From: Okeania sp. KiyG1
GTDB taxonomy: Bacteria > Cyanobacteriota > Cyanobacteriia > Cyanobacteriales > Microcoleaceae
Direction of reading: 5' to 3'
DNA: 61,458 nt
NCBI RefSeq assembly: GCF_014132355.1
Contig: NZ_BLZO01000133.1
Span: 1 to 61,458 of the forward strand
The notes beneath the pieces are model-generated. The model did not search any database and was not told the origin of the DNA. It worked only from the letters and a program-made list of their open reading frames with translations. The position numbers and the translations under genes were made by a program. Shown in pieces: positions 9,088 to 15,302 of the stretch; position 1 is the stretch's first letter; every line of letters starts with the position of its first letter.

Positions 9088-9095
9088 GGAAAAAT
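9088..9095. repeat. 8-bp target duplication, left copy (family A)
   Basis: GGAAAAAT directly precedes the left inverted end. The identical octamer follows the right end at 11962-11969. Confidence 0.8.
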
Positions 9096-11961
9096 GGCGT
9101 TGCTGAGTGGTAATGATTTTTAGATTAAGTATCAACACAATACATAAGTTTTTCAATTTTACCGAAAAATTGTGGGTATGCGCCTCCCTTTTTAAGGGGA
9201 TAAAAAAAATATTCCATATTTAAAGCCTCCTTATTCCAGAGGTACTGATAACTGATAACTGAAATTACCTTCAGCTACTTACCATTACATTTGAGCAACT
9301 GCTAGACAAGGATTTGGCCACGGATATACGGATGATTAATCTGCATTCTGTGAAGCTCAAAAAAAACGGCAAGGCTTTTCCCCTTGAATCGCCAAAAAGC
9401 GAGTGTGTAATTCCGAGGTCTCCTCGGAATGAAAGACACACTCAAGACAAATCATGATAGTATGTAATCATTGGGTTTAACTTGCCCCTACGCATGACTT
9501 TTTATTCAACGCAAAAACAGCATATCGTCACTGAATATATATAGAAGAGATACTCACACCATCAAAACAGAGAAAAATTATCATTCTGTGAAACTCTACG
9601 AACAGAAGTAACCATCGGAAAAAATTTCTACCATTAACAGATAAATATAGGTCAACACATCAATATAGGCGTTGCTGAGGGGCGGGATGAAACTTTTGGC
9701 AAAAGGTAAATCCCATGGGCGTGTTTTTTATACGGACTGTGTTCGAGAGCCTAAAATTCATCCCGCACTCCATGCAATACCATACATTTACTCATGTAGA
9801 AGCGATGTAGCTGCTGCACTTGCTCCGCCAACGCTATATTCACAAACAAAGAAAAATCCTCATTTTGTGAAGCTCAAAAAAAACGGCAAGGATTTTCCTC
9901 TTGCATCCCCAATAAAATCGTGATACAATTTAATCATTGGGAGTCACTCGCCCCTACGCATGACTTTTTATTCAACGCAAAAACAGCATTTCGCCACTGA
10001 ATACATATAGAAGGGAAACTCACACCATCAAAGCAGAGAAAATTATCATCTTGTGAAGCACTAGGGAAAGAAGTGGCGACACCGAAAAATTTTCACCCCA
10101 TCAACACATCTATATATTTACTCATGTAGAAGCGATGTAGCTGCCGCACTTGCTGTGCCAACGCTATTATTCACAAACCAAAGAAAAATTATCATTTTGT
10201 GAAGCTCAAAAAAAACGGCAAGGTATTTCCCCTTGCATCCCCAAAAAGCGAGTGTGTAATTCCGAGGTCTCCTCGGAATGAAAGACACACATCTGACAAA
10301 TCGTGATATGATTTAACCATTGGGAGCTACTCGCACCTACGCATGACTTTTTATTCAACACAAAAACAGCATTTCGTTACTGAATACATATAGAGGGGAA
10401 ACTCACACCATCAAAGCAGAGAAAATTATCACTTTGTGAAGCACTAGGAAAAGAAGTGGCGACACCGAAAATTTTTCACCCCCATCAACACATCTATATA
10501 TTTACTCATGTAGAAGCGATGTAGCTACCGCACTTGCTGTGCCAACGCTATATTCACAAACCAAAGAAAAATCATCATCCTGTGAAGCTCAAAAAAAACG
10601 GCAAGGATTTTCCTCTTGCATCCCCAAAAAAATCGTGATATGATTTTACCGTTGGGAGTTGCTCGCCCCTACGCATGACTTTTTATTCAACACAAAAACA
10701 GCATTTCGTTACTGAATACATATAGAAGGAATACTCACACCATCAAAGTAGAGAAAGTTATCATCCTGTGAAGCACTCAGGTCAAGAAGTAACGATTGCC
10801 AAATTTGCCCGCCCCATCAACAGTATCGATATTATTCATGTAGAAGCGATCGCTATATTCACAACCAAAGAAAAATTATCATTTTGTGAAGCTCAAAAAA
10901 AACGGCAAGGTATTTCCTCTTGCATCCCCAAAAAAATAATGATACAATTTAACCGTTGGGGGTTGTTCGCCCCTATACATGACTTTTTATTCAACCCAAA
11001 AACAGCATTTCGTTACTGAATATATAGAAGAGATACTCACACCATCAAAGCAGAGAAAAATTATCATCCTGTGAAGCACTGAGAAAAGAAGTGGCGACAC
11101 CGAAAAATTTTCACCCCATCAACACATCCATATATTCACTCATGTAGAAGCGATGCAGCTACCGCACTTGCTCCGCCAACCCTACGCTCAACAACTCAAA
11201 AGTCAAAACTCATCCATGAGTGAGTTTGAGTGTTGATAATTGCCCTAACCTATTTACCTAGTGCTATATATTCACAAACCCAGAAAATCCTCATTTTGTG
11301 AAGCTACTAAAAAAACGGCAAGGATTTTCCCCTTGCATCGCCAAAAAAATCATGATACGATTTAACCATTGGGTGTCGCTCGCCCCTACGCATGACTTTT
11401 TATTCAACCCAAAAACAGCATTTCGTCACTGAATACATATAGAAGGGATACTCAGACACCAAAGCAGAGAAAAGTTATCATCCTGTGAAGCACTACGAAA
11501 AGAAGTGGCGACACCGAAAAACTTTCACCCCATCAATACATCTATATATTCACTCATGTAGAAGCGATCGCTATATTCACAAACAAAGAAAAATTATCAT
11601 CCTGTGAAGCTCTAAAAAAAACGGCAAGGATTTTCCTCTTGCATCCCCAAAAAAATCGTGATAGTATGTAATTATTGGGCTGCATTCGCCCCTACGCATG
11701 ACTTTTTATTCAACCCAAAAACAGCATTTCGTCACTGAATACATATAGAAGGGATACTCAGACACCAAAGCAGAGAAAATTATCATCCTGTGAAGCTTCA
11801 AAAAATGGCAAGGTATTTCCCCTTGCATCCCTAAAAAAATCGTGATAGTATGTAATCATTGGGTGTAACTAGCCCCTACGCATGACTTTTTATTCAACCA
11901 TTGAAAAACCTATATTTTGCGTTGATACTTAATCTAAAAATCATTACCACTTAGCAACGCC
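9096..11961. mobile_element. 2.87-kb non-autonomous element (family A) carrying an eight-copy modular array
   Basis: The left end reads GGCGTTGCTGAGTGGTAATG and continues as a 60-bp sequence through AGATTAAGTATCAACRCAA. The right end (about 11905-11961) is its inverted complement. Perfect 8-bp direct repeats GGAAAAAT flank it. Inside, a module around CGCATGACTTTTTATTCAAC occurs eight times (9491, 9957, 10340, 10672, 10976, 11389, 11695, 11879), with spacings of 184 to 466 bp that reflect loss or gain of submodules. No ORF is conserved between copies, so I see no transposase. The ends resemble those of IS5/IS903-like elements, but I cannot assign a family. Another element tract (ACCGAAAAATT to CAGTTAT repeat, 9170-9265) has inserted near the left end. 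Confidence 0.75.
9415..9445. other. Palindrome inside the array, also at 10256-10292
   Basis: ATTCCGAGG and CCTCGGAAT form a 9-bp stem, flanked by GTGTGT and ACACAC that extend the stem. The same structure recurs in one other unit at about 10256. It is the strongest foldback in the array and may mark a structured transcript. Confidence 0.5.
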
Positions 11962-12082
11962 GGAAAAATCTTGCTTCTTTTTTATGCTATGTAAACACCT
12001 AGGCGGAATCTAATTTCAGCTATTAGCAGTCAGCTCTTCGGTGCGAAATGCGCTTGCATTCAGCTTTTTAAGATAATTTCTT

Positions 12083-15193: not shown

Positions 15194-15302
15194 GGCGTTG
15201 CTGAATGCTAATGATTTTTAGATTAAGTATCAACGCAAAACATAAGTTTTTCAATTTTCCCTTCAGCTACTTACCATTACATTTCAACAACTCAACAACG
15301 CC
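15194..15302. mobile_element. Family A MITE (109 bp) with a matching empty site
   Basis: It begins GGCGTTGCTGAATGCTAATG and ends CAACTCAACAACGCC. The interior shares AGATTAAGTATCAACGCAA and CTTCAGCTACTTACCATTAC with the large element at 9096. Left flank AAAATTCA and right flank CAAATTCA form an 8-bp duplication with one mismatch. The paralogous copy at about 15553 has a single AAAATTCA with no insert. Confidence 0.85.

Follow-up and report, generated by a model that had tools for sequence, protein, structure and literature searches.

As described in PMC9045159 and PMC3610870, NsiR1 of heterocystous cyanobacteria is an RNA of ~60 nt, which is encoded by one array upstream of hetF and transcribed from DIF1-type promoters. 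The array is described in PMC9045159 as 12 tandem copies with individual promoters, where the seven central copies are identical and those at the edges are divergent; the divergent siblings may have different targets. The array that we describe here, from the cyanobacterium Okeania sp. KiyG1, resembles NsiR1 in being composed of tandem short non-coding units (each with its own promoter in NsiR1, each with a promoter-like region here), and in having central copies that are more alike and edge copies that are divergent and may likewise differ in their targets. However, NsiR1 forms one array, whereas tens of arrays per genome are found here with unit starts ~290 nt apart, and hetF, which adjoins NsiR1, does not lie beside the array in our window (the whole stretch of 61,458 nucleotides that was analysed). 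HetR-dependent DIF1 promoters carry TCCGGA near -35. In contrast, the -35 region here reads TTGCAT, another promoter type than DIF1, and some of the arrays are carried by IS1-type ends. NsiR1 is thus the closest system in working, yet the unit array is not a member of it, given the neighbours at the window array, the promoter and the many arrays.

Non-autonomous elements of the IS1 family include MITEs and mobile insertion cassettes. The carrier of the window array shares with them ends as in an IS1-family element of the same genome, an 8-bp duplication, the absence of an internal transposase and the presence of passenger DNA, and it belongs with the IS1-type non-autonomous elements. It differs in that its passenger is a promoter-like non-coding array, not one or a few genes, and in that this array is also found in many places without such ends. 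REP and BIME sequences are dispersed bacterial repeats that are high-copy, intergenic, non-coding and lineage-restricted, and the unit is like them in all four respects; yet the units here are long, lie head-to-tail, lack a conserved palindrome in the 5′ part examined, and possess a promoter-like region and a defined constraint pattern.

The element occupies positions 9096-11961 of the window, with a TPR-protein gene on one side and an acetamidase/formamidase-family gene on the other. The first-pass annotation had described it as a transposon-like insertion with 60-bp inverted ends, a perfect 8-bp target duplication and a non-coding cargo of eight modules, some of them with a 9-bp palindrome. 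The duplication, GGAAAAAT, is indeed exact at 9088-9095 and 11962-11969, no ORF of at least 100 aa is found between 9053 and 12083, and a profile search recovers eight units between the ends (starts at 9341, 9858, 10190, 10573, 10877, 11289, 11595 and 11781), all eight with an exact copy of an 18-nt motif, CATGACTTTTTATTCAAC. As for the ends, their inverted pairing holds over 62 nt (9096-9157 and 11900-11961, 57 of 62 positions complementary), while they turn out to be fragments of a 101-bp MITE with further copies in this genome. On the left side lies a forward MITE, nearly whole, which is split by ~100 bp of another repeat, and on the right side an inverted half MITE is joined directly to the last unit; the ends seem to derive from two oppositely oriented MITE copies. 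The features, with "motif" standing for the 18-nt motif, are:

9088-9095, no strand: left target-site duplication GGAAAAAT, with an exact copy at 11962-11969 and a single copy at the empty site of G019 (L216)
9096-9163, + strand: left end, the first 68 bp of the 101-bp MITE, an IS1-type terminus; inverted repeat at 9096-9157
9164-9264, + strand: ~100 bp from a second dispersed repeat, interrupting the left MITE; parts also match L007 and L014
9265-9299, + strand: remainder of the left MITE (MITE positions 64-98), by MITE comparison
9341-9526, + strand: unit 1 core; TTGAAT at 9384 and TGATAGTAT at 9455-9463, 68 bp apart; motif at 9493-9510
9858-9992, + strand: unit 2 core; TTGCAT at 9901, 17-bp spacer, TGATACAAT at 9921-9929; motif at 9959-9976
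10046-10059, + strand: extra TCATYNTGTGAAGC module downstream of unit 2, at the usual offset of 185-190 nt from core starts
10190-10375, + strand: unit 3 core; TTGCAT at 10233 and TGATATGAT at 10304-10312, 68 bp apart; motif at 10342-10359
10573-10707, + strand: unit 4 core; TTGCAT at 10616, 17-bp spacer, TGATATGAT at 10636-10644; motif at 10674-10691
10877-11011, + strand: unit 5 core; TTGCAT at 10920, 17-bp spacer, TGATACAAT at 10940-10948; motif at 10978-10995
11289-11424, + strand: unit 6 core; TTGCAT at 11333, 17-bp spacer, TGATACGAT at 11353-11361; motif at 11391-11408
11595-11730, + strand: unit 7 core; TTGCAT at 11639, 17-bp spacer, TGATAGTAT at 11659-11667; motif at 11697-11714
11781-11906, + strand: unit 8 core (last); TTGCAT at 11823, 17-bp spacer, TGATAGTAT at 11843-11851; motif at 11881-11898
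11900-11961, - strand: right end, the inverted half (positions 62-1) of the same MITE, by MITE comparison
11962-11969, no strand: right target-site duplication GGAAAAAT, an exact match to the left copy

An extended -10-like element, TGATAnnAT, is kept in all eight window units, and six of the eight have TTGCAT before it, separated from TAnnAT by exactly 17 bp. In units 1 and 3 the spacer between the -35-like and -10-like elements is 68 bp, 51 bp longer than in the other six, because of an insert that bears the 9-bp palindrome (ATTCCGAGG TCT CCTCGGAAT; 9410-9430 in unit 1 and 10259-10279 in unit 3). Since the insert is absent from unit 1 of three orthologues (G006, G024 and G028), the palindrome is, judging from sequence comparison, a later insert in some units. 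Further copies of the TCATYNTGTGAAGC module were found in the window at 10761, 11064 and 11478, with a weaker one at 9581.

A search of six genomes of the genus matched the left flank of the element in each, in G019 in part only. In G019 (probably Okeania hirsuta PAB10Feb10-1), the left and right flanks overlap by exactly one GGAAAAAT, which constitutes an empty site, and G006, G013, G024 and G028 carry the element with GGAAAAAT on both sides and with 4, 8, 5 and 6 units, respectively (two partial units included). The insertion of the element as one unit, with its 8-bp duplication, is therefore genuine, although the single GGAAAAAT in G019 may have resulted from precise loss of the element rather than from a site that was never filled. 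In Okeania sp. SIO2B3 (L106), another array is enclosed by such ends and has the duplication CAAAAATT; no clean empty site was found for it, and G028 has both ends at that place too. At L069, L071, L072, L163, L181 and L198 a half MITE follows the last unit, and no matching second end was found at these loci. Moreover, a MITE match lies beside only 7 of 37 arrays of the own genome, one of the seven being weak. Array and carrier are thus separable, and the cargo is not peculiar to this transposon.

The end sequence of the element matches 24 places in the genome, many of them being the 101-bp MITE. MITE copy L004 shows the 8-bp duplication GAAAAATG and copy L020 the duplication ATAAAATT, and other copies, L006 and L012 among them, show none. 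Genome-wide, GGCGTTGCTGAR was counted 173 times and its reversed control 0 times. A genome-wide search for a transposase-bearing relative of these ends, using the IS1 transposase family, was successful and led to L261, a 755-bp element with the duplication GCAATTCT and the ends GGCGTTGCTGA(AA/TT)AGTAATGAT. Two partial frames of L261 match the N-terminal and C-terminal parts of NF033558 (IS1 transposase) with E values of 1.3e-26 and 1.7e-20, both falling below the cut-off of that model, and the second frame also matches PF03400. A second IS1-type copy, L262, has ends as in L261 and no visible target duplication, and ends of this type were absent from the eight other PF03400 loci examined. Over the first 24 bp, the left and right ends of the window element share 21 and 20 positions with the right end of L261 and 19 and 18 with its left end, and none of 20,000 random 24-mers shared more than 17. 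The 21 and 20 positions shared with the right end of L261 indicate that the ends of the window element are IS1-type. The target duplication expected on IS1-family insertion is 8-9 bp, and the duplications of the window element, L261 and L106 fit this size. The carrier, bounded by IS1-family ends, is non-autonomous and was presumably moved in trans by an IS1-type transposase. Ends of the same type pair around other cargo as well, namely the 101-bp MITE, the transposase of L261 and the second array of L106, which tells against the possibility, named in the first-pass annotation, that they might be chance repeats never pairing elsewhere, just as the G019 site tells against that of a missing empty site.

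The unit itself is present in the own genome (G000, 10.98 Mb) with 150 matches to a 304-nt query and with at least 37 arrays, counted in gathered stretches, while motif sites occur on further contigs too. All gathered DNA contains at least 501 profile hits in at least 143 loci, grouped into at least 151 arrays; these hits and arrays, like the set of 496 cores, count orthologues and a few loci more than once (the window reappears as L089, and L090 and L092 are the same arrays as L177 and L146, respectively). Among the arrays listed, orthologous and duplicate loci included, all units point the same way in 118 of 120 multi-unit arrays; 31 of the 151 listed are single units, and the median unit spacing among those listed is 287 nt. 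Exact copies of the core motif CATGAYTWTTTATTCAAC number 177 in the own genome, more than chance would give since its reversed control yields 0, and 104, 109, 55, 147 and 115 in five other genomes of the genus, so that Okeania genomes hold 55 to 177 copies each, with tens of tandem arrays. Seven genomes of another genus (g7) have 6 to 151 copies and two further genera 9 and 2 (the 2 in G003), while CATGAYTWTTTATTCAAC has 0 copies in five of the 20 genomes tested (G001, G002, G009, G010 and G011, one of them 55% complete) and the reversed control 0 in all 20. By similarity, the unit matches 16 of 60 genomes of the family, from 5 of 11 genera, and 44 of the 60 have no match; in an even sample of the class, which holds four other members of the family, only the own genome among 388 has CATGACTWTTTATTCAAC. 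The matches listed come from Okeania, Trichodesmium (including T. erythraeum), Hydrocoleum and a Microcoleaceae MAG. Phages, plasmids and viral contigs gave no match to the unit, and a phage or plasmid origin was rejected on this ground. No description of the unit was found in the literature searched, which excludes the T. erythraeum primary transcriptome, where it may already be in print; nor is the unit described in the available parts of PMC9045159, PMC3610870 and PMC7517822.

The unit is a non-coding core of ~118 nt, of which the most conserved part is 18 nt long. Its constraint was assessed in 128 own-genome units (effective number 71), which were gathered by similarity, the motif not being used for selection, and which were left after 9 units of at least 150 nt had been removed from the 137 full own units before alignment. 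In the -35 columns the frequencies are.98,.95 and.95 for TTG, then.94 for C,.92 for A and.87 for T; in the -10 columns they are.94 and.89 for TG, then.86 for T, 1.0 for A, two freer positions,.83 for A and 1.0 for T. The whole pattern (TTG, TG and TAnnnT at the right spacing) is found in 72 of the 128 units vs 1 of 128 after mononucleotide shuffling. Conservation falls on the columns of an extended -10 promoter, and the pattern of constraint is of promoter type. A standard promoter scan with stricter hexamer rules did not list the unit sites (13 others were found, 8.4 expected), because TTGCAT shares with the -35 consensus TTGACA only TTG. Downstream, CATGACTTTTTATTCAAC starts ~24 nt after the predicted start (about 24-41 nt), with every position at.92 or higher in the same 128 units. 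It is found in 117 of these and reads ATG A(C/T)T (T/A)TT TAT TCA AC, its changes being mainly ACT to ATT and TTT to ATT, at codon positions 2 and 1, with third positions at.98 or higher, which argues for constraint on the nucleic acid and not on a peptide; no coding signature was seen in the units. All species give the same column picture (at least 436 distinct full units, effective number 96), the invariance of the motif being there partly by construction since loci were gathered with a 22-nt pattern that contains it.

In the first-pass annotation it was suggested that the units may be structured RNA with covarying stems. This gained no support in the 5′ part of the unit, where RNAalifold predicted 0 pairs in 74 aligned regions of ~58 nt (72 sequences chosen with a motif-containing pattern and two window units). 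None of the 4227 Rfam 15 families reached its gathering score in the window, and when the limits were relaxed for the element only two matches appeared, with E values of 8.3 and 9.1, neither of them credible. Terminator-like sites on the + strand, up to 220 nt after the core, were found for at least 9 of at least 496 units vs 4 of 496 mononucleotide shuffles, a near-lack that gives the unit no defined 3′ end. On the opposite strand, a terminator-like hairpin occurs in 107 of 496 cores among those listed, a count without shuffle control; such hairpins may shield the array from opposing transcription.

With its dozens to hundreds of recurrences in Okeania genomes, the unit looks like a hitherto unrecognised multicopy small-RNA gene family. 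We place about equal belief and doubt in the reading that these are NsiR1-like multicopy non-coding RNA genes, locally amplified and sometimes carried by IS1-type ends. The carrier was inserted between the TPR-protein and acetamidase/formamidase-family genes in an ancestor of several Okeania species, presumably moved by an IS1-type transposase supplied in trans. The promoter-like region of each unit (TTGCAT, 17 bp, TAnnAT after TGn) would start a short RNA, whose 5′ part would expose the 18-nt CATGACTTTTTATTCAAC stretch and which would act in trans by base pairing, like the multicopy NsiR1, with copy number setting the dose. On this reading, arrays grow and contract internally between end units that persist, and new ones arise through IS1-type transposition or when an array is duplicated together with adjacent genes. 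Transcription of the units, an RNA as the selected product and its action in trans through the 18-nt stretch are what we infer from these observations. That this is an undescribed multicopy regulatory RNA family of the filamentous marine cyanobacteria Okeania, Trichodesmium and Hydrocoleum, in which every array is an evolving group of sibling RNAs with a nearly invariant 18-nt pairing region in common and some arrays are IS1-type cargo, is proposed only tentatively.

Perhaps the unit is instead a selfish or passive dispersed repeat without host function, which spreads by IS1-type ends, gene duplication and gene conversion and whose promoter-like part is a relic or self-serving; we regard this as possible, though doubtful. 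In favour of it are the high counts of some genomes (177, 151 and 147 exact motifs) against few or no copies in other members of the family, the carriage of arrays between IS1-type ends, and the inserts that several arrays share at one position within the unit. Copying from unit to unit within arrays would suit it as well, and the internal amplification proposed at the outset is supported: mean identity is.875 between units of the same own-genome array vs.742 between different arrays, and for 99 of 129 own-genome units the closest relative lies within their own array, vs 4.1 with shuffled labels (L089-L100 left out of this comparison). When the window array is compared with its orthologues L177 and L120, the last units of the different species are closest to one another, while most inner units group with those of their own species. 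This indicates that the array ends are old while the inside turns over; the first window unit pairs with the first of L120, not with the first of L177. The last-unit core is no slower than its flank, as orthologous arrays diverge by ~7% in the core, ~17% in the preceding spacer, ~4% in the adjacent MITE half and ~2% in the flank (six pairs, with the window left out because its flank aligns poorly). The core overall is thus not unusually slow, only particular columns are, and the case for selection rests on which columns vary rather than on the overall rate. Yet constraint peaks at the promoter-type columns and the 18-nt motif while other columns vary, a pattern not expected from neutral copying, and each array keeps one orientation. 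Moreover, some arrays have stayed at the same genes over genera, a synteny demonstrated by comparison of nine non-Okeania loci: arrays of T. erythraeum and Okeania lie beside the same uvrA (protein 92% identical), the same second gene (76-79%) and the same third gene (91% over 93 aa), and those of Hydrocoleum and the own genome beside the same fourth gene (87%).

The units could also be DNA-level sites for a protein (TCATTnTnTGAAGC at ~-75 and ~+109, and CATGACTTTTTATTCAAC) whose role is to titrate a regulator, form DNA loops or order the chromosome, with RNA as a by-product, which we consider unlikely. The conserved block TCATTnTnTGAAGC lies at the core start, ~-75, and in many units again 185-190 nt from the core start, and the recurrence of this TCAT..TGAAGC module at its usual offset would agree with binding sites, as would an 18-nt motif that is nearly invariant as DNA and has no conserved RNA fold in the 5′ region. 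However, the second module is missing, by pattern, from both Hydrocoleum loci, four of six Trichodesmium loci and several own arrays, and a -10-type pattern (TGn, T, A, two free positions, A, T) suits RNA polymerase and not an array of binding sites. The absence of a clear orientation bias to neighbours is likewise compatible with DNA-level sites: among the 36 own arrays with both neighbours, 12 lie between convergent genes, 9 between genes both forward, 8 both reverse and 7 divergent. A role as promoter for the downstream gene was rejected, no orientation clearly prevailing in these 36. In all gathered arrays with both neighbours, convergent genes are the most common (at least 40 of at least 107, orthologues and duplicates included), and at L087, L114 and L180 the next gene (start MQFIDQAEIQVEAG, read as obg) begins 14-17 bp downstream. 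The genome gives 31 matches to genes of the FGE-sulfatase type, and five own arrays lie 143-213 bp after such genes; because these copies have similar DNA separating gene from array, they are read as joint duplications and a diversity-generating retroelement was dismissed. A link of TnpB genes to the arrays was discarded too, their distance not being fixed. The ATTCAAC end raised integron attC sites as a further candidate.

That each unit encodes a short peptide (MTFYST...) is very improbable since, even though the motif reads as codons and the frame continues to ~16 codons in window-type units, changes fall at codon positions 2 and 1 with third positions conserved, downstream frames vary in sequence and length between arrays and no ribosome-binding site was seen.

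Trichodesmium is a major marine nitrogen fixer, and the reason for the large non-coding share of its genome is an open question. The unit provides a concrete and testable piece of this non-coding DNA in Trichodesmium and its relatives, with many conserved promoter-like sites that have one common downstream motif, some of them at the same genes across genera, and with a transposon cargo that is a non-coding array and not a gene. If transcribed, the unit would, in our judgement, rank with the bacterial small-RNA families of highest known copy number. If this reading is true, copy number and transposition would tune the dose of a small RNA across the genome.

In units 1 and 3 of the window element, a palindromic insert separates the -35-like element (TTGAAT in unit 1, TTGCAT in unit 3) from the extended -10-like element of the promoter-like core, and the same separation is found in two other arrays of Okeania sp. 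KiyG1, L069 and L071. The palindromes in the window are the following.

9410-9430, palindrome in the insert of unit 1
10259-10279, palindrome in the insert of unit 3

Nine units of 177-187 nt occur in 6 arrays of this genome, their excess length being due, or probably due, to the palindromic insert, which was read letter by letter in the window, L069 and L071 and assigned by length alone in L074, L078 and L082. The recurrence of insert-lengthened units in 6 arrays suggests that units have been copied between arrays.

MITE-like pieces and a further copy of the 101-bp MITE, parts of which form the ends of the window element, were also observed. Between units 1 and 2, as read from the sequence, the spacer holds a nested MITE-like piece (9669-9781) that starts with GGCGTTGCTGAGGGGCGGGATGAA and ends near TTCATCCCGCACTCCATGCAATACC; two similar pieces, with GGCGTTGC ends, lie in the L070 array. 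The 101-bp MITE itself occurs again, almost in full, at 15194-15291, about 3 kb from the window element. A different repeat was found in the same genome (G000:C24:29993-31980, loci L225-L237), in 13 head-to-tail copies, each starting with GGCGTTGCTGAATCAA and mostly spaced at 152 bp; it is a MITE-like sequence arranged as a tandem array.

On the strand opposite the promoter, a terminator-like hairpin was counted in 107 of 496 cores, a count made without a shuffle control, and four such sites were listed in the window element versus 2.5 expected.

Five arrays of this genome (L053, L076, L084, L085 and L086) lie 143-213 bp downstream of an FGE-sulfatase/kinase-type gene, and the gene-to-array DNA is similar among the five copies. 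The gene products end in GFR(I/V)V, an ending typical of the variable proteins of diversity-generating retroelements. At three other loci (L087, L114 and L180), the array has 5-7 units and stops 14-17 bp upstream of the start of a gene (MQFIDQAEIQVEAGKGGDGMVA) that was read as obg; given this short distance, the last unit could act as the promoter of the putative obg.
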